The notes under the pieces were generated by a model. The model was given only the letters and a program-made list of their open reading frames with translations. It had not been told where the DNA came from and did not search any database. From Oscillatoria sp. CS-180 (GTDB lineage Bacteria > Cyanobacteriota > Cyanobacteriia > Phormidesmidales > Phormidesmidaceae), in the NCBI RefSeq assembly GCF_028330965.1, contig NZ_JAQMUB010000043.1, positions 1 to 64,000 on the forward strand: DNA of 64,000 bases. Reading direction: 5' to 3'. The translations under genes were made by a program, and so were the position numbers. Below are positions 216-38,361 of this stretch, in pieces. The first letter of the stretch is position 1; each line of letters opens with the position of its first letter.

Positions 216-1235
216 TCAAGCCAGTCGTTGCCACAGGCGAGATAGCTCAGCTAGCAATGTTTGAAATGTCTCTCGGAAGGCTCGATGTTCGCTTTCATTG
301 AGGGCGCGATCGCGGTCAGCACGGACTAAAGCGTCATCAATGCGCTGACGATCGGCACGAACATCAGCTAGAAGCACATCAAATCGTTCAATCATTTCTG
401 CATGGCGCTGATCGGCTCTTTGTCGGTCAGCACGGACATCAGCTAGAAGCACATCAAATCGTTCAATCATTTCTGCGTGGCGCTGATCGGCTCTTTGTCG
501 GTCAGCACGGGCATCAGCTAGCAGGTTGTTGAATCGCACATCGGTTTCAGCCTGTTGCTGCCTCAGCTGCTCAATATCGTCAGAGACAGAACCAATCATA
601 GAAACGACATCGCTAATAGAATCCCTTAACTCCTGATTAGTAACTGATATAGAGTTCCTCATATCCTGCGTGGCGGCTCGATTCTCCTCTCGCACTTCCT
701 GAGTGGCCGCTTGATTCTCCTCTCGCAGTTCCTGAGTAGCGGCTCGATTCTCCTCTCGCAGTTCCCGAGTAGCGGCTTGATTCTCCTCTCGCACTTCCTG
801 AATGGCCGCTTGGTTCTCCTCTCGCAGTTCCTGAGTAGCGGCTCGATTCTCTTCTCGTAGTTCCTGAGCAGCCGCTTGGTTCTCTTCTCGCAGTTCCTGA
901 GTGGCGACTCGATTCTCCTCTCGTAGTTCCTGAGCGGCCGCTTGGTTTTCTTGCCGCAGTTCCTGAGTGGCCACTCGATTCTCCTCTCGTAGCTCTTGGG
1001 TAGCTGTCTGGCTTTCTTGCCGCAGTTCCTGTGTAGCGACTCGATTCTCCTCTCGTAGCTCTTGGGTAGCTGTCTGGTTTTCTTGCCGCAGTTCCTGTGT
1101 AGCGACTCGATTCTCTTCTCGTAGCTCTTGAGTAGCTATCTGGTTTTCTTGCCGCATGGCAGCGATCGCGACAGCGTTGCCTTCTACTAACCTTTCAAGG
1201 CGATCGAGTCGGTCGTTTGAGTTGAGATTAGTCAT
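216..1235 (-). CDS. Long coiled-coil protein with hendecad repeats
   Basis: 339 residues, function not recognised. After a short head (residues 1-33) come about fifteen 11-residue units of the pattern A-T-Q-E-L-R-E-E-N-R-V/A (residues about 34-198), a hendecad coiled coil rich in Glu, Arg and Gln. A middle segment (about 199-235) is followed by roughly two and a half copies of a 25-residue unit containing RADQRHAEMIERFDVLLADV. There is no signal peptide, membrane span or enzymatic motif. A long rod-like scaffold is the simplest reading. The start ATG at 1235 precedes the head with no obvious alternative. It lies outside the FaRLiP genes and shows no operon link to them. Confidence 0.75.
   Translation of the reverse strand: MTNLNSNDRLDRLERLVEGNAVAIAAMRQENQIATQELREENRVATQELRQENQTATQELREENRVATQELRQESQTATQELREENRVATQELRQENQAAAQELREENRVATQELREENQAAAQELREENRAATQELREENQAAIQEVREENQAATRELREENRAATQELREENQAATQEVREENRAATQDMRNSISVTNQELRDSISDVVSMIGSVSDDIEQLRQQQAETDVRFNNLLADARADRQRADQRHAEMIERFDVLLADVRADRQRADQRHAEMIERFDVLLADVRADRQRIDDALVRADRDRALNESEHRAFRETFQTLLAELSRLWQRLA
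642..1136 (-). repeat. 33-bp tandem repeat array inside the coiled-coil gene
   Basis: About fifteen in-frame copies of a 33-bp unit encode the 11-residue motif. The copies differ at synonymous sites and at codons switching E/Q and R/Q. Alternating ENRV and ENQT units suggest that pairs of units (66 bp) were amplified together. Copy number is likely to vary between strains. Confidence 0.85.
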
Positions 1236-14840: not shown

Positions 14841-15983
14841 CTATGTCTTGATATTCGTATCGGTTTCAGAAACCTCTCCAAGAAAGACTGGAAAAGACGC
14901 TTCGCGAGTCTCTTCAATGGCCTGCAAGCCAAGATTGGCCTGCCCCACAATGTCTGCCCAGGTCGGCACGACAGTCTTTTGCAGATATCCGCCTGACACT
15001 TGAGATAAAGAATTTTGATCGAAGCCAAAGGCTGCCATATCCACGCCCAAAGCGGCTGACCAAATGCCGGCAACGGGAAAAGCCGCTAGGAAGAAGTGCA
15101 GCGATCGCGACGATTGAAAGCTCGCGCTCCGCCAGAGTAATTTTTGCTGATTCGCTTGAACATGCTCAAAGCTGTAGACTTGCTCAGGCTTGCCTGTCCA
15201 GGATGATTCCGTCAATGAAGTGTGCGATCCTGAACGACGAATGAGCGCCGAAGTGACGAGAGAACCATGAGCAGCACACAGCAGCGAACCGCCGAATACA
15301 CCGATCACACCCAGTTGATGAAAGGGATTCGCCAGGATGTTGTGATCCGCCTGAAATTGCAGCATAAACGTGAAGGTACCTGCAATTCCCAAAGGCATTC
15401 CTGCCGAAAAGCCGCCCTGACCAATGGGGTAAATCAACAGCACCGAGACAGTCGCGGCAACAGGAGCTGTGAAGGCGAGAGAAATCCAAGGGCGCATCCC
15501 CAAGCGATAGCTCAGTTCCCATTCGCGATCCTGATAGGCAATGATACCGATAACGAAGTGGAGCACGATGAGCTGATAGGGACCGCCATTAATCAGCCAC
15601 TCGTTGAGAGAAGCTGCTTCCCAGATAGGGTAGAAGTGTAGACCTACTGCTGGAGAGGTCGGCACAACAGCCGCCGTAATGACGTTGTTGCCACTCAATA
15701 GGGCCCCCGACAACAGCCCTCCAGTACCATCAATATCAACCGCTGGCGCAAACAAGAACGCCAACACAAATGTTATGGCTGCTGTTGAAATGGTGGGAAT
15801 CATCAAGATCCCAAACCAGCCAATGTAGAAGCGGTTTTCGGTGCTAGTCACCCATCGACAAAAGCGTTCCCACGGATTAACGCGAGGGGAAGGCTTGGCG
15901 GTGTCTACAGGACACTGAATCTCCCGCACTTCTTTAAGTTGGTCAGGACGATCAAGCGCGATCGCTCTACCAAGCTGTGTCAT
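14841..15983 (-). CDS. chlF: ChlF (PsbA4), chlorophyll f synthase, super-rogue D1
   Basis: 380 residues, a D1 homolog. It shows the diagnostic Gln-Asp pair at 151-152 (AYQDREWEL, where D1 has MG), reported as the ChlF hallmark. Manganese ligands are lost: the residue matching D1 Asp170 is Ala ([10 protein letters not shown]), and the C-terminus ends [12 protein letters not shown] without the [13 protein letters not shown] block. The TyrZ position is Phe171 (LAFTAP) where psbA3 here has Tyr. The His matching D1 His190 is kept (QADHNIL). It makes chlorophyll f from chlorophyll a in a light-dependent reaction. An N-terminal extension of about 15 residues precedes the D1-like start. Confidence 0.96.
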
Positions 15984-16756
15984 TTTAAAGCTCCTGTATC
16001 AACGAATTATTTAACTTTGCATTCATGATTTACCTAATGAAAAAAATGCCGCTTGCCACAACAGAAAGGCAAATCAGCACTGATTTTTAAATCTTTGACT
16101 TTGACAATCATGAGTATGCTCTAGCAAGCCGAATTCATTAACAGCAAACTTTTTCCGAACCACCCTCGCAGGATCCTTCGAGTAGCCACTCCTTATTTTT
16201 TGCCTGAGGATTAGCAATCAACTTCCCCAGAAAAGCAAATCATCTGATAGATGATCAGACTTTGCTTCCCAGCAAAAATCTAAGTGGCATAGAGGAAAAG
16301 GGTTGATCAGAAAGTAATCTGCCTTGATTTGTATGCAAGCAGAATAGGCAAGAAAAATGAAAAACTAATGAAGATGGCTAGGTGGTTTAGAAAAAGTTAC
16401 AGCCTCAAAGCTTGCTATATAAGGGATTGAGAGCCTTCAATGCCAAAGACCTATAAAATGTGATGGTAGAAAATTAAGCTGCCCTTATTTCTGAAAAGTC
16501 CCCTCATCCAATCTCTCTGTATAAATACTGAATTCAAAAATGAGGATTGTCAGTCCTCTTTTTTTAGGAAAATCAGGTTTTCCAGAATCAGGCATTCAAC
16601 CTTAATTAAACTCAGTAGCTTCGAAAAATATTTCAAGATAAAATTTTCACAGCCTCTAATTTAAGAGTTTCCTTAAAAAACGAAATAAGTTCATTAAATA
16701 TTCTGAAATGTGTGATATTTTCAGCTTATAAGCGTCATTTTGGAGATAAATTTAGA
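15984..16756. promoter_or_regulatory. AT-rich divergent region between chlF and psbV
   Basis: About 770 bp with no convincing gene, between divergently transcribed chlF and psbV. It likely holds promoters for both. CTGCCTTGA at 16319-16327 and AAGCTGCCCTT at about 16476-16486 partly match the palindrome upstream of rfpB, so they are candidate shared regulator sites. The psbV frame is open back to 16712, but the first good signal-peptide start is 16757. Confidence 0.4.
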
Positions 16757-17269
16757 ATGTTTTTCCCTCTTAAAAAGAGATTGATAAAAGCAGTTGTTGG
16801 ATCAGTTTTTGCTGGATTAATTTCTACAACACTATGGGCTGGCTCTGCTGCTGGTGCTGAAATTAATCGAGACATTCGAACGGTGCCGTTAAACGATTCA
16901 GGCGATCCGATTACGCTCACGACAAAACAGCTCGCTCAAGGACAGCGTAAATTCAATGGCAGCTGTGCTTCATGCCATTTAGATGGCGGAACAAAAACTA
17001 ACCCCAGCGTGGATCTATCCCCCGCTACGCTGGCCCGGGCCACCCCACCTCGTAACTCAGTCAGCAGCATTGTGGATTATCTCAACGAGCCAACCACTTA
17101 TGATGGCTTGAGGACTCTTGCAGAACTGCATCCGTCTACTGCACGGACTGATATTTTTCCAAAAATGCGGGACTTGACGGAAAAGGATTTAACGGCGATC
17201 GCAGGCTACATTCTTGTTCAGCCTAAGGTTGTTGGGAAGCAGTGGTCTGGGGGCAAACCTAATCGATAG
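16757..17269 (+). CDS. psbV: PsbV-type cytochrome c550 paralog
   Basis: 170 residues from the ATG at 16757; an upstream ATG at 16712 would add 15 hydrophilic residues before the signal peptide and is less likely. A signal peptide (about 1-34, ending SAAGA) precedes a mature chain starting EINRDIRTVPLN. The heme c site is CASCH, and the second axial His lies in AELHPS. PFPK-like DIFPKMRDLTEKDL and the C-terminal WSGGKP match PsbV. It is an extrinsic lumenal PSII subunit that protects the oxygen-evolving cluster. It is not among the FaRLiP genes usually listed and probably is a second copy. Confidence 0.88.
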   Translation: MFFPLKKRLIKAVVGSVFAGLISTTLWAGSAAGAEINRDIRTVPLNDSGDPITLTTKQLAQGQRKFNGSCASCHLDGGTKTNPSVDLSPATLARATPPRNSVSSIVDYLNEPTTYDGLRTLAELHPSTARTDIFPKMRDLTEKDLTAIAGYILVQPKVVGKQWSGGKPNR

Positions 17270-17633: not shown

Positions 17634-18461
17634 TTACACAACCCCTGGCTCTACACGACCGTAGAACTGCCCCCGAATTTTGACGTCCATTGCTTCTTTC
17701 GCGCCAAAGTCGGTGTCAGAAGGCTGATTACTTTCGAAGATTCCAGCAATCTCGCCTGTGGTGCGATTCACCCGATTGATTTGCAGAGAAATTTGCCCCT
17801 GTCCCATCTCAAACGACTTGATGTTTTGACGAACGAATTCTTCGCTGTCTGCCTGAATAGGCAATCCTACTGCTGAGTCATATCCCATCGACAACCCTCG
17901 TCCCTTTGGATCAATAAAGCTGGAGGTGCGATAGGACGGAACTTGAAATGTTCCAACCAGGCGCGTAGCCGGAGTGAGGTTGTTGAACGCATTCTGATTT
18001 TCGGCGACTAGTCCTTTGACCGTAAACAAGATGGGAACTCGTTCTCCATCCGGTAACTGCACAGTTACCGGCTGAAAATCAAACCCACCTTGTTCGACAA
18101 AAGTGACATTGCCCTCAGGGTTAAGAGTCAGAGAACCGGCAATCTGATCGAGGGAGAAGCTTTTTCGAGTCAGGGGGCGGGTCGCAACAAACTTACCTTC
18201 TGAGCGCTTCATTAGGGGCGATCGCCTGACCAAGAATGTTTTGGGCTGCAAACAAAGCTCTTTGAGCTGATAAGACTGATTGGCATCAATCTCAATTGAA
18301 TCCAAGTTAGTTTCAGTCAGTTGAGGACAATTGTTGGCTAATCCACTTCCTCTAATGTCGTCATAGCTAAGTGACTCGCTATCAATGGGGCTTTGGCTAC
18401 AGGCTCCTAGCAGCCCTAAACACATGGCTAGAAAAAAAGCGATTAAAGCGCGATATTTCAT
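17634..18461 (-). CDS. psbO: PsbO-type manganese-stabilising protein paralog
   Basis: 275 residues. A lipoprotein-like signal (MKYRALIAFFLAMCLGLLGAC) is followed by the PsbO signature YDDIRGSGLANNCPQL and the paired Cys in ELCLQP. SFIDPKGRGLSMGYD, the EIAGIFESNQPSDTD segment and a C-terminal IRGQFYGRVEPG also match PsbO. It is the extrinsic lumenal protein that steadies the Mn4CaO5 cluster. It sits between psbF and a fragment copying its own N-terminus. It is not part of the standard FaRLiP gene list I know, so it is likely a far-red-specific second PsbO. Confidence 0.93.
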   Translation of the reverse strand: MKYRALIAFFLAMCLGLLGACSQSPIDSESLSYDDIRGSGLANNCPQLTETNLDSIEIDANQSYQLKELCLQPKTFLVRRSPLMKRSEGKFVATRPLTRKSFSLDQIAGSLTLNPEGNVTFVEQGGFDFQPVTVQLPDGERVPILFTVKGLVAENQNAFNNLTPATRLVGTFQVPSYRTSSFIDPKGRGLSMGYDSAVGLPIQADSEEFVRQNIKSFEMGQGQISLQINRVNRTTGEIAGIFESNQPSDTDFGAKEAMDVKIRGQFYGRVEPGVV

Positions 18462-29737: not shown

Positions 29738-29884
29738 ATGCCTAACACGTTCTACCTAGCCTATGGAGAAGGCCAATTTGGCTCTACTGCAAGCGGAATT
29801 TTTTCAGCCCTCCTAGTGTTTGTTATCTGCTGTGTCATCTTCGGCGTGTATTCCTACCGGAACTATCCGATGGACAAAGAATGA
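29738..29884 (+). CDS. 48-residue one-helix membrane protein, unrecognised
   Basis: It starts MPNTFYLAYGEGQFGSTASG, has one hydrophobic helix (about 20-38, with Cys-Cys in the middle: FVICCVIFG), and ends YRNYPMDKE. A GGAG site lies 7 bases upstream and the spacing to the next gene is 51 bp. It does not match PsbN, PsbT, PsbX, PsbM, PsbJ or other small photosystem subunits I can recall. Position after psbH2 and before the Ycf35-like gene suggests a small thylakoid subunit or assembly factor. Confidence 0.65.
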   Translation: MPNTFYLAYGEGQFGSTASGIFSALLVFVICCVIFGVYSYRNYPMDKE

Positions 29885-29935: not shown

Positions 29936-30319
29936 ATGTCCCATTTCAGCCATATCAAAACCCGCATTCACGACCTGGAGGCTCTACAAACTGCTCTGAC
30001 AGACTTAGACATTCAATGGAAACCAGGCCCCGCTAAGGTTAGAGGCTATCAGGGTCAAACCCACACAGCTGCTCTTGTGATCGAGCAGTCCAACGATCGC
30101 GATGTTGGTTTTGCTTGGAACGGTCAAGAGTACACCCTCGTCGCCGATCTTCAGTTTTGGCAGCAGCCTTTATCCGTTGACGGCTTCATCAGGCAAGTGA
30201 CTCAGCGCTACGCCTATCAAAAGCTTCTCAACGAAACAGCCGACCAAGGCTTCGAGATTGCTGAACAACAGCAGCAAGAAGATGGCTCCATTCGGCTAGT
30301 TGTCCAGCGTTGGTCCTAA
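29936..30319 (+). CDS. ycf35: Ycf35-like (DUF1257) protein
   Basis: 127 residues with the characteristic opening MSHFSHIKTRIHDLEALQTA, the central GQTHTAALVIEQ and FAWNGQEYTLVADLQFWQQP, and the end QEDGSIRLVVQRWS. This is the conserved plastid/cyanobacterial Ycf35 family, whose exact function is not settled. Whether this is the only genomic copy cannot be seen here. It lies next to the small membrane protein and ends the plus-strand run before a clear terminator, which suggests co-expression with the photosystem genes. Confidence 0.88.
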   Translation: MSHFSHIKTRIHDLEALQTALTDLDIQWKPGPAKVRGYQGQTHTAALVIEQSNDRDVGFAWNGQEYTLVADLQFWQQPLSVDGFIRQVTQRYAYQKLLNETADQGFEIAEQQQQEDGSIRLVVQRWS

Positions 30320-30349
30320 ACCTTCCTGTGCCAGAGCGAACAGGTAAGT

Positions 30350-30374
30350 AGCCCTCATCAAAGAGGGCTTTTTT
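30350..30374 (+). terminator. Rho-independent terminator after ycf35
   Basis: AGCCCTC (30350-30356) pairs with GAGGGCT (30363-30369), followed by a T-run to 30374. It closes the apc-psb plus-strand block. Confidence 0.88.
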
Positions 30375-31278
30375 GCGTTTAAGTATTACAAAATATTCTC
30401 ATCAAAGTTTTGAGTTTCCCAAAATATTTCTCTTCCCAAAAAACATAAAATCTTTTTGAGGTCGGTTCATACATAAATATTTATTCAAAATCAATATCCA
30501 TTGATATTCGATCTAATATGAATTTGCATGGGTAGTTCTAGGTATAAAAAAATACCAACCCTGAAGAGACTTCGACACTATTGCGGCGCCTCATGCTGAA
30601 CACAAAAAGTTCTCTCTAGTTTCTAGATGCGTTGGTATGCAGGGATAGTGCTTACATAGGTGCTCTAGCTAAACTTGCGGACTTGCAGGTCCATATGGTA
30701 CGAATTGAATCATCAAAATTATTAGGAATAATCAATTCTATGTCATTTTTAGTAAATGCAGCGGACGCAATTGTGCTCTAGGTAGCTATTAACCTATCCG
30801 GAAAATCTATTGATTATTCGCACTTTAAACATCTAGATAGTATGAATTTTAAAAAAGTAAAAAATGTCAGACCGATTGCTTTTGATATGTCGGTGTATGT
30901 TTTAATTTATGATTACAGCAGGTTTAATGCAAATCTTTTTGAGTCTTACCGGTTACTCTCTTGAGAACAGTGATTACGAAGTCAATTCCCGTTAACCGAC
31001 TTCATTCAGAGCACCTCTCTCGAAAAGGGCACTTCTGTCAACCCATTTCAAAAGCGGTTGCTTGTGATTCTGTGAGCTAAGTTACCGATTTAAATATTCA
31101 AGGGACTCAAGTCTGTCAAACACACTTGCAGTCACCCTTCAAATCCGACGGTTTCCTTCTTTGTAAATCTGGTTTCTCTGTCAGATGAGATCGTCATGTT
31201 CTCCAAGAACGTCCATTCTGCGTATAAACGCTGATCGTTCTTGCTGTCTGCTAGCTATCACTATTTATTAAAAAACTC
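30375..31278. other. Long AT-rich gap with a possible gene remnant
   Basis: About 900 bp before the tandem phycobiliprotein-like gene. On the plus strand one frame from 30620 to 30964 has only one internal stop (30779-30781); see the pseudogene entry. The rest shows no gene. A promoter for the 446-residue protein must lie toward 31200, though no strong consensus is visible. Confidence 0.4.
30620..30964 (+). pseudogene. Possible decayed ORF with one in-frame stop
   Basis: The frame reads FLDALVCRDSAYIGALAKLA through IINSMSFLVNAADAIVL, a TAG, then VAINLSGKSIDYSHFKHLDS and onward to a TGA at 30962-30964. Base composition is AT-rich. I do not recognise it; VAINLSGKSI vaguely recalls EAL-domain proteins but the surroundings do not fit. 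Chance openness is a real possibility. Confidence 0.2.
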
Positions 31279-32619
31279 ATGTTGATTTCTGCCTCTCATC
31301 ATGTCAAAACGCCCGCCGTTGAGCTCCTGACCCACATTTGGGAAGCACGCTACGTTCCAGATTGGTCGTCCGTTGCAGAGTCGAAAAATACGGCGGATTT
31401 CCGTCGAGACATTATCCAAGCTGCGTCTCAAGAAGGACGTTACAAGACAGCTGCCAAGATTACAGAGCGAGTTGTCGTCATTAAATGTCAAATGGCGAGC
31501 CTCAAAGCTGAGTCCCTCTACTCCTATATTCCTAGAGTGGTGGATTTCAATGACGCAAAGCGAATGTCTAATTTTGCTTTGCTGATTTATCTCAAACTGG
31601 TAGAGATTTACCAGCTGTCTGCTTCGGGTTTTGCCGATTCCAACCGACTACGAACGACGTTGTCGATGGCCAGCCACCACAGCAGTGCTTTGCAGCAAGA
31701 AGCTCTGTCGATGGAAGCTTGGGGCATGCCCCCCATTGAGAAGCTAGCTCAGGAACTCGAACCGTTGCTGATCGAGTTTCAGCAGCAGCACATTCAATCT
31801 AAAGACAGTCGGACCTTAGGCTTTTTAACAACGATTCTGAATTTCTGCAATGAGCTGATTCTCCACAGTCTGTCAGAAGCAGAACGACTCTTGATCTCCC
31901 CCTATTTCAAATTTGTAGAGGAGCAGGTTGCACTCCCTTGGCAACGGGTCTGTTTAGCTGCCAGCAACCATTCTCTCAACAGTCCAGCGCTGGCCATTGT
32001 TGAGCAGTGTTTGCCGCAGAGTCAGGCGATCGCCCATCGAACCTACAGCCAACTCATTGAAAGATTTCCCGCTCACTACAGTCGTCGCGGATCTCTCAAT
32101 GATCCCGGAGTCACCCACTCCTGCATCCGTGACCTACAAATGAATCAAGCCTATTTCTGGCTGTCTTTTCTAGACAATACACTTTCGCCCATTCGGGATG
32201 AATTCGTTCCGCTGTGCATCATGGTATTTCCAGGTATTGGGGTGAAATGGGAGCTTATCGAATCCTGGAATCAACTGTTGTTAGAAGAGATTTCCAGTCT
32301 TCTAGATCAAACTCAAATAGACCAAATACGCCCTTACATTGACGAATACCTTCAAGCCTTCAGCGATCGCCGCTCTGAATTTCGACAGACACCGAAGGGC
32401 TTACAGGACAAAGCTCAGAAGAAAGCAGCGACTTCTCTCAAAAAGCTAGGGCAGCTACACCCCGGAATGGCATCAAACTTATCGGGCAAAGCCAACGCTT
32501 CGTCAGGCACCGAGAAACCATCTGCGTCTAATGAAGTCGTCTATCTTCAAGAGAAGATGGCAGCGCTAGAAGCTGAATTATCAAACGCTCGGAAACAAAT
32601 CAATATCTTGAATCAATAG
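31279..32619 (+). CDS. Tandem phycobiliprotein-fold protein with coiled-coil tail
   Basis: 446 residues. Domain 2 (about 222-362) aligns by eye with the allophycocyanins nearby. LAIVEQCLPQSQAIAHRTYS matches helix B. SCIRDLQMNQAYFWLSFLDN (Cys282) matches the bilin site, sharing CIRD with ApcB2. IGVKWELIESWNQLL leads to IRPYIDEYLQAF, matching the C-terminal APYFDxLIQSL. Domain 1 (about 38-215) opens FRRDIIQAASQEGRYKTAAK and ends SEAERLLISPYFKFVEE, also phycobiliprotein-like but more diverged and with longer loops. Basic linker 370-395 and a coiled coil 419-446 follow. A role in far-red phycobilisome assembly, degradation or signalling is inferred. It converges with psbA3. Confidence 0.7.
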   Translation: MLISASHHVKTPAVELLTHIWEARYVPDWSSVAESKNTADFRRDIIQAASQEGRYKTAAKITERVVVIKCQMASLKAESLYSYIPRVVDFNDAKRMSNFALLIYLKLVEIYQLSASGFADSNRLRTTLSMASHHSSALQQEALSMEAWGMPPIEKLAQELEPLLIEFQQQHIQSKDSRTLGFLTTILNFCNELILHSLSEAERLLISPYFKFVEEQVALPWQRVCLAASNHSLNSPALAIVEQCLPQSQAIAHRTYSQLIERFPAHYSRRGSLNDPGVTHSCIRDLQMNQAYFWLSFLDNTLSPIRDEFVPLCIMVFPGIGVKWELIESWNQLLLEEISSLLDQTQIDQIRPYIDEYLQAFSDRRSEFRQTPKGLQDKAQKKAATSLKKLGQLHPGMASNLSGKANASSGTEKPSASNEVVYLQEKMAALEAELSNARKQINILNQ

Positions 32620-32688: not shown

Positions 32689-32709
32689 AGCGCCCCTCTA
32701 GAGGGCGCT
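32689..32709. terminator. Bidirectional hairpin between the tandem PBP-like gene and psbA3
   Basis: AGCGCCC (32689-32695) pairs with GGGCGCT (32703-32709) around a palindromic TCTAGA loop. It is placed between convergent genes, 69 bp after one and 36 bp after the other. The T-run is weak (TGTGTTGTT). Confidence 0.65.
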
Positions 32710-32745: not shown

Positions 32746-33825
32746 TTAGACAGGAATGCTTGGCGCTTGATAAGCAACAGGAATGGCAGGTTCACTAGCC
32801 AAGTCTAGAGGGAAGTTGTGAGCATTACGCTCATGCAACACCTCAAAACCTAAATTGGCTCGGTTCAACACATCAGCCCAACTCGGCAAGATTCGACCTT
32901 GAGAATCCAAGATAGAGTGATTGAAGTTAAAGCCATTGAGGTTGAACGCCATTGTGCTAATGCCCAGGGCGACAAACCAAATGCAAACAACAGGCCAAGC
33001 CGCTAAAAAGAAGTGCAGCCAGCGTGAATTGTTGAAACTAGCGTATTGGAAGATTAGACGGCCAAAGTATCCGTGGGCCGCGAGGATGTTATAAGTTTCC
33101 TCCTCTTGACCAAACTTATACCCATAGTTCTGTGACTGGCTGTCGGTCGTTTCCCGAATCAGACTGGAAGTGACCAAAGAGCCATGCATGGCGCAGAATA
33201 GCGAGCCTCCCAACACCCCTGCAACCCCAAGCATGTGGAATGGGTGCATCAAGATGTTGTGTTCCGCTTGGAAGACAAACATAAAGTTGAAGGTGCCGCT
33301 AATCCCCATTGGCAAACCATCCGAGAAACTACCTTGACCAATGGGATAGATCAAGAAGACGGAACTTGTTGCAGCAACAGGTGCAGAATAAGCCACACAA
33401 ATCCAGGGGCGCATTCCCAAACGATAGCTCAGCTCCCACTCTCGCCCCATGTAGCAAAGCAACGCAGGGATGTAGTGGAAGGCAATCATCTGGTAAGGAC
33501 CACCGTTGTATAACCACTCATCTAACGTGGCCGCTTCCCAAATGGGATAAAAATGGAGGCCGATCGCATTAGAAGAGGGCACAACAGCCGCCGTAATGAT
33601 GTTGTTGCCGTACAGCAAAGAGCCCGATAGTGGCTCTCGGATGCCGTCAATATCAACAGGAGGGGCCGCAATAAAGGCCAGTACGAAGACGGTTGTAGAG
33701 ACTCCGAGAAGAGGGATCATTAAAACACCAAACCAGCCGACATAAAGTCGATTTTCGGTGCTAGTCACCCAATTACAGAATCTCTCCCACAAGGATGTAT
33801 CTTGTCGTTGAAGAAGAGTTGTCAT
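32746..33825 (-). CDS. psbA3: PsbA3, far-red photosystem II D1 protein
   Basis: 359 residues, a functional D1. TyrZ is in ICVAYSAP, and the Mn ligands are kept: Asp in GSFSDGLP, Glu-His in QAEHNIL, and the C-terminal [13 protein letters not shown] with a cleavable 15-residue tail [16 protein letters not shown]. The residue matching D1 position 130 is Glu (YMGREWEL), the high-light type. It is far-red D1, pairing with PsbD3. It is transcribed alone toward the tandem PBP-like gene and is separate from the other psb genes, a common FaRLiP layout. Confidence 0.95.
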
Positions 33826-37644: not shown

Positions 37645-38361
37645 ATGAGCAGTAATTTAGCAAGCAAGCTTCGAGAAGGCACTAAGAAAGCGCATACGAT
37701 GGCTGAGAACGTCGGATTTGTCCGATGTTTTTTGCGTGGCGTTGTTGAAAAGAACTCTTACCGGAAGCTAGTTGCCAACTTCTACTTTGCCTACACAGCA
37801 ATGGAAGAGGAACTGGAGCGTCATAAAGATCACTCCGTTGTTTCTAAAATCTACTTCCCAGAGCTTCACCGGAAGCAGAGCTTAGAAACAGATTTGCACT
37901 ATTACTATGGTGCTAACTGGCGGGAACAAATCAGTCTTTCTAAAGCAGGCCAAACCTACGTTGATCGCATCCGTGAGGTTTCCAATACTCAGCCAGAACT
38001 GCTGGTTGGTCACTCTTATACCCGCTATTTAGGCGACCTCTCTGGTGGTCAAATTCTAAAGGGAATTGCTCAGCGAGCAATGAACTTGACTGATGGTGAA
38101 GGCACTGCTTTCTACGAGTTCGAAGACATCAGCGACGAGAAGGCGTTTAAAGCAACTTATCGTCAGTCTTTGGATGATATTGACGTTAGCGAAGCAATGG
38201 CTGACCAAATTGTTGAGGAAGCTAACGACGCCTTCGGTCTTAATATGGAGATGTTCCAAGAGCTAGAAGGCAACTTGGTAAAGGCGATCGGGCAAATGCT
38301 GTTCAACACTCTGACCAGCCGTCGTCGTCGGGGCAGCACCGAACTCGCAACCGCCGAATAA
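37645..38361 (+). CDS. ho1: Heme oxygenase
   Basis: 238 residues, full length. The proximal heme ligand His17 is in REGTKKAHTMAENVGFVRCF, and the distal-helix glycine motif is in YLGDLSGGQILKGIA. It converts heme to biliverdin using ferredoxin. Biliverdin is the precursor of phycocyanobilin used by the allophycocyanins and RfpA in this window. Whether it is the general HO1 or a low-oxygen paralog cannot be told. It is followed by a strong terminator-like hairpin. Confidence 0.94.
   Translation: MSSNLASKLREGTKKAHTMAENVGFVRCFLRGVVEKNSYRKLVANFYFAYTAMEEELERHKDHSVVSKIYFPELHRKQSLETDLHYYYGANWREQISLSKAGQTYVDRIREVSNTQPELLVGHSYTRYLGDLSGGQILKGIAQRAMNLTDGEGTAFYEFEDISDEKAFKATYRQSLDDIDVSEAMADQIVEEANDAFGLNMEMFQELEGNLVKAIGQMLFNTLTSRRRRGSTELATAE

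Follow-up and report, generated by a model that had tools for sequence, protein, structure and literature searches.

Phycobiliproteins are regarded solely as antenna pigments. The allophycocyanin subunits ApcD5, ApcD3, and ApcB (PF00502) have a helical fold, a C-x-R-D motif, and a PYxD-type C-terminus, and smURFP and related near-infrared fluorescent proteins, which are derived from an allophycocyanin alpha subunit, have a bilin-binding Cys followed by R-D. In FaRLiP, the true core subunits ApcD3 and ApcE2 have R-D without the Cys and hold the bilin noncovalently; in strain PCC 7335, both do so without a thioether (PMC10810746). The Asp of the motif, which forms hydrogen bonds with bilin rings B and C, is according to the same study shared by all phycobiliproteins (PMC10810746). 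The Pix (tax1) and Ptx phototaxis gene sets, with genes for a PatA-type regulator, CheY, CheW, a multi-GAF MCP, and CheA, include no phycobiliprotein-fold component as reviewed (PMC5812497).

The stretch of DNA analyzed here, which has a length of 64,000 nucleotides and is referred to as the window, contains a FaRLiP cluster and, within it, the gene for a protein that we call PBPL. The C-terminal half of PBPL is like the allophycocyanins in the three features named above and has the Cys and R-D at the same place as smURFP. Unlike the allophycocyanins, with which it shares about 16-20% identity, PBPL appears to consist of two fused copies, has no bilin site in its N-terminal half, and has a coiled-coil tail, and its relatives are not encoded together with phycobilisome genes. 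While smURFP is an engineered homodimer, PBPL would be a fused pair that occurs naturally and has a tail of regulatory appearance. In contrast to ApcD3 and ApcE2, PBPL is neither conserved in nor restricted to FaRLiP clusters; its Cys-less relatives may, like these two subunits, hold a bilin noncovalently. Operons of PBPL relatives contain the same genes as Pix and Ptx and, unlike these sets, a gene for a phycobiliprotein-fold protein. Pfam and NCBIfam contain no family covering the whole of PBPL, and we found no description of a PBPL-like protein in the open-access literature searched. A preliminary description of this DNA had stated that no named FaRLiP component is known to have this layout, and we found no published name in that literature either.

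PBPL is very likely an all-helical tandem of two phycobiliprotein-fold copies

The PBPL open reading frame is intact from its ATG start at exactly the coordinates given in Table 1 and has a GC content of 0.48, similar to that of the neighboring genes.

Table 1. Coordinates of PBPL, its parts, and other features in the window
Feature	Coordinates	Strand	Remarks
Repetitive protein	216..1235	-	Many REENxxATQEL-type 10- to 11-residue units, partly tandem
chlF, divergent PsbA homologue	14841..15983	-	458 bits, below the psbA cutoff of 596
Cytochrome c-550 PsbV	16712..17269	+	In FaRLiP cluster; above NCBIfam cutoff
PsbO-like gene	17634..18461	-	In FaRLiP cluster; judged by eye
48-aa membrane-like peptide (MPNTFYLAYGEG...)	29738..29884	+	Between psbH2 and the DUF1257 gene; no family name found
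DUF1257 (PF06868) gene	29936..30319	+	Closes the psb run
A+T-rich (37% GC), apparently noncoding stretch	30320..31278	.	959 bp, upstream of PBPL; contains the terminator
Intrinsic terminator after the DUF1257 gene	30350..30369	+	Parts PBPL from the upstream FaRLiP genes
PBPL, whole gene	31279..32619	+	446-aa tandem phycobiliprotein-fold protein (very likely); ORF and AlphaFold2 model
N-terminal half, residues 38-215	31390..31923	+	Likely diverged phycobiliprotein-like fold without bilin motif, ending ISPYFKFVEE
C-terminal half, residues 220-362	31936..32364	+	Phycobiliprotein (PF00502-like) domain
Putative bilin-attachment motif C282-I-R-D	32122..32133	+	Assigned by sequence; all 105 relatives have R284 and D285, and 36 of them have the Cys
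Residue 289	32143..32145	+	Asn; Phe in 101/105 relatives
Basic, poorly ordered linker, residues 363-415	32365..32523	+	Low pLDDT at 396-412
C-terminal coiled coil, residues 416-445	32524..32613	+	Predicted; common to L075, L076, and L081
Palindromic terminator-like stem	32689..32709	.	Between convergent PBPL and far-red psbA3
Far-red PsbA3 (D1), not ChlF	32746..33825	-	Convergent neighbor; 726 bits, above the psbA cutoff of 596
Heme oxygenase gene	37645..38361	+	About 4 kb past the FaRLiP cluster, about 5 kb downstream of PBPL

As a single sequence, PBPL matched PF00502 weakly over residues 237-359 (E 0.0066), with a score of 16.9 bits against the gathering score of 22.2 bits. Among 105 relatives, 88 matched PF00502, with a best E of 1.8e-10; these matches support that the PBPL family is, as judged by sequence, a distant branch of the phycobiliprotein superfamily. 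Local alignments of the C-terminal half to ApcD5 and ApcD3 outscored 300 of 300 shuffles (z 5.8 and 5.4, respectively), and a search of the PDB using the family profile retrieved phycobiliproteins and phycobiliprotein-derived fluorescent proteins over this half. When the PDB was searched with the single sequence, allophycocyanin was found at an E of 0.9 only; the apolipoprotein and homing endonuclease matches from that search were mostly chance helical matches and were gone with the family profile. An AlphaFold2 model computed with the family alignment as input had a pLDDT of 87 and a pTM of 0.82. Using Foldseek, the best match to its C-terminal half was smURFP with a target TM of 0.85, followed by allophycocyanins at about 0.7, at E-values that for both halves of PBPL were weak and in no case at or below 0.001. 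In the model, the C-terminal half clearly has the globin-like phycobiliprotein fold.

For the N-terminal half, Pfam gave no match and pairwise alignment no clear similarity. An AlphaFold2 model of this half alone reached a pLDDT of 88, and phycobiliproteins were its sole consistent Foldseek matches in the PDB (target TM 0.5-0.65; highest probabilities 0.99 and 0.98), the other folds among the 50 matches listed having probabilities of ≤0.21. Aligning the profiles of the two halves using hhalign gave a co-linear match of residues 97-215 with 249-359 at a probability of 34% and, counted for a single comparison, an E of 4e-4. Based on these Foldseek matches and the co-linear alignment, it is likely, on moderate evidence from modeling, that the N-terminal half is a second, far diverged phycobiliprotein copy. 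We found no bilin motif in it; R43-D44 is present but is not conserved among the relatives.

These analyses bear out the preliminary description in its claim that the C-terminal half aligns with the allophycocyanins (shuffles, PF00502 matches of the family, and AlphaFold2/Foldseek) and make its claim of a more diverged second copy at about residues 38-215 likely (AlphaFold2, Foldseek, and hhalign). The separate analysis of the halves that it had proposed gave phycobiliprotein matches clearly for the C-terminal and probably for the N-terminal half, and the basic linker and coiled coil that it had placed after them correspond to the poorly ordered and predicted coiled-coil segments in Table 1.

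The putative bilin site combines an invariant R-D with a variable Cys

In the alignment, the motif C282-I283-R284-D285 of PBPL is the same as the CIRD of ApcB2, as had been noted previously. Only P220, G271, R284, D285, and Y292 are invariant columns in the alignment of the 105 relatives. Residue 282 is Cys in 36 of them, including all five relatives with a chemosensory operon context, and Ser in 57. The ApcD3 and ApcE2 homologues of the window have no Cys and retain R-D. An invariant R-D together with a variable Cys is the pattern that would be expected from a mixture of covalent and noncovalent bilin binders, although it is not proof, and the invariant R-D could instead be structural. From these residues, we infer that PBPL may bind a bilin at C282-R284-D285.

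The copy in the window deviates from its relatives four residues after the invariant Asp, where it has Asn289 (Table 1). It also sits on a long branch (0.71). Because of the long branch and Asn289, the window PBPL may have changed its role and have an altered function.

The PBPL family is widespread and not restricted to chlF genomes

Two paralogues of PBPL are present elsewhere in the same genome, with 37% and 31% identity. In a sample of 390 genomes of the class, the family was found in 149 and chlF in 21, and we therefore rejected a restriction of the family to chlF genomes. No match to the family was found in the plasmid collection. G003, which is of the same genus as the window and has a FaRLiP cluster, has no member of the family anywhere.

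In a phylogenetic tree, the family forms two deep clades. Clade II, with Ser and no Cys at the position of residue 282, is widespread in small (2.5-Mb) to large genomes, and no neighbor gene was conserved at its loci. Clade I is multi-copy and contains all Cys-bearing forms. In the sample, clade I genes and chlF were found together more often than expected by chance: 9 of the 21 chlF genomes have clade I genes, compared to 21 of the 369 remaining genomes (odds ratio 12, P 4e-6, with relatedness ignored). Clade I genes are thus missing from 12 of the 21 chlF genomes, and chlF is missing from 21 of the 30 genomes with clade I genes. The window PBPL groups with L075, L076, L081, L078, and L082 (SH-aLRT 91, not starred), and it shares the C-terminal coiled coil with the first three. 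The preliminary description had named, as evidence against its claim, orthologs mainly from cyanobacteria without chlF and lacking Cys282. One half of this applies: most genomes with relatives have no chlF, but Cys282 is retained in the nearest relatives.

We note that an apparent frameshift divides the clade II member at L199 (9418-10460) into two frames. In G012, a genome with chlF, a clade I gene adjoins a third psaA-psaB-psaL set (L035, 2794-8343), which is distinct from the far-red set and from the other set; a third psaAB set is also present in G003.

The nearest relatives of PBPL are encoded in phototaxis operons

The genes of the three relatives that share the coiled coil, L075, L076, and L081, lie immediately ahead of cheW in phototaxis operons of the Pix/Ptx type. 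The gene order of L075 and L081 is PatA-type regulators, CheY, PBPL, CheW, and multi-GAF MCP, to which L075 adds CheA; the contig of L076 starts at PBPL, followed by CheW, MCP, and CheA. In L078, PBPL comes after MCP, CheA, and a CheW-like gene. In L181, from another subclade, it comes after PatA, CheY, CheW, MCP, and CheA, with all genes on the same strand. Four of these five cases are close relatives of one another. The MCPs of the operons have cyanobacteriochrome-type motifs (DHCF; ..CH), and the gene set fits Pix/tax1 and Ptx (PMC5812497) with PBPL as an extra gene. Among immediate neighbors of clade I genes, Response_reg was found in 8 of 83 cases compared to 2 of 83 in controls, while CheW and GAF were found in 4 each.

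Orthologues from families f24 and f15 yielded no additional operon case, and Pfam and NCBIfam scans detected no known chemotaxis domain (CheW, MCP, or receiver) in PBPL. The window PBPL has no chemosensory neighbor, and the three taxis operons elsewhere in its genome are without PBPL. A shared operon context for the whole family was rejected: the neighbors of clade I genes mainly reflect lineage synteny, and those of clade II are not conserved. Because most of clade I and all of clade II lack a conserved operon, signaling may not be the general role of the PBPL family.

The window PBPL is probably outside the core far-red machinery

PBPL sits between the DUF1257 gene and the convergent far-red psbA3. 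The 959-bp stretch upstream of it presumably carries its own promoter. The simplest reading of the terminators on both sides and of this upstream stretch is that PBPL forms a transcription unit of its own. In seven other FaRLiP clusters (G003, G007, G323, G315, G287, G033, and G352), one of which, G003, belongs to the genus of the window, the corresponding stretch runs from psbB2/psbH2 (DUF1257 where present) to far-red psbA3 and contains no PBPL. Moreover, no apc gene was a neighbor of a PBPL family member in 123 loci. We therefore rejected as the main reading that PBPL is a FaRLiP component, as which it had been presented in the preliminary description; the seven clusters, the spread of the family, and the flanking terminators speak against that assignment, and PBPL is probably outside the core far-red machinery.

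Several other genes of the cluster are listed in Table 1. A PsbO-like gene is also present in L204-L207 and a c-550 gene in L205-L207, and in Halomicronema hongdechloris a PsbO is among the locus tags near chlF (PMC6416890). In L204 and L206, the 48-aa peptide is conserved in the corresponding position. The DUF1257 gene is also present in L204 and L205, and none was seen at the corresponding place in L206, L207, L208, L210, and L211.

DISCUSSION

The explanation that we favor, with a probability of roughly 0.45, is that PBPL is a bilin-binding, single-chain mimic of a phycobiliprotein dimer that was recruited to light signaling, and that the copy in the window is an orphan beside FaRLiP genes. 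PBPL would be soluble and mimic the dimer in one chain, with the N-terminal half as a pigment-free pseudo-subunit and the C-terminal half as a smURFP/allophycocyanin-like domain carrying a bilin at C282-R284-D285, and the coiled-coil tail would dock to partners. Since its nearest relatives lie in light-taxis operons, its job would most likely be that of an accessory of cyanobacteriochrome-MCP/CheW/CheA signaling, as a bilin-carrying antenna or modulator or as a scaffold of the receptor array. The window copy, as an orphan of its subclade and its own transcription unit between the FaRLiP DUF1257 gene and psbA3, may be under far-red regulation and may link light signaling to far-red growth. A more tentative proposal is that a light-harvesting fold became a chemosensory component, in that the tandem phycobiliproteins carry a bilin and serve cyanobacteriochrome taxis receptors as photosensors or antenna adaptors, and that one copy moved beside the far-red genes. 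Among the roles that the preliminary description had offered (assembly, storage, degradation, or sensing), sensing gains most weight from the relatives in cyanobacteriochrome chemosensory operons; its tandem protein mimicking a dimer is upheld, while a chromoprotein or sensing factor stands only as possible.

The strongest rival to a role in light signaling is that PBPL is a pigment-free structural mimic, in which the fold and R-D are kept for stability and the dimer-like surface serves an assembly, docking, or degradation factor on phycobilisome cores or linkers. The minority of relatives with the Cys, the widespread Cys-less clade II without signaling context, and the N-terminal half without a bilin motif are all as this explanation would have it. 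However, invariance of R284 and D285 even in very diverged members is unusual where a ligand has been lost, and the nearest relatives are in light-taxis operons and not beside phycobilisome genes; we consider this explanation somewhat unlikely. Clearly less probable is that PBPL is a bilin carrier, a storage protein, or a lyase-like helper that binds free bilin transiently and then supplies cyanobacteriochromes or, in the case of the window, far-red allophycocyanins with it. A Cys conserved for covalent attachment fits a holder rather than a donor, and PBPL has no match to a bilin lyase family in Pfam or NCBIfam; the retained bilin-contact residues and the operon partners, which by motif are bilin-binding cyanobacteriochromes, would fit such a helper. 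The heme oxygenase gene downstream of PBPL would do so as well, but it has no match in the stretches read beyond far-red psbA3 of G003, G007, G323, and G315.

Two further explanations concern the position of the gene. A selfish or chance insertion, with PBPL as the relic of a decaying paralogue without a specific role, could account for the long branch, the unusual Asn289, and a position not shared by the sister genome, but is very unlikely given that the frame of 446 codons is intact and still encodes the two halves, the motif, and the coiled coil, that the GC content is like that of the neighbors, and that no mobile-element remnants or flanking repeats were found. Least probable of all is that PBPL gives this strain a new structural subunit in the antenna core of its far-red phycobilisome. 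The location inside the FaRLiP cluster, the resemblance of the C-terminal half to ApcD5 and ApcD3, and the co-occurrence of clade I with chlF (relatedness ignored) would favor this explanation, but it is at odds with the seven clusters without the gene, the 123 loci without an adjacent apc gene, the separate transcription unit, and a published FaRLiP core described with known subunits only (PMC10810746).

For research on FaRLiP, our analysis indicates that the PBPL gene probably does not belong to the core far-red machinery. PBPL would offer a compact, natural single-chain phycobiliprotein. If our favored explanation is true, light signaling is a further use for which the antenna fold was recruited, in a widespread family of fused phycobiliprotein pairs with an invariant bilin-contact pair; to our knowledge, a signaling role, if confirmed, would be the first for the phycobiliprotein fold.
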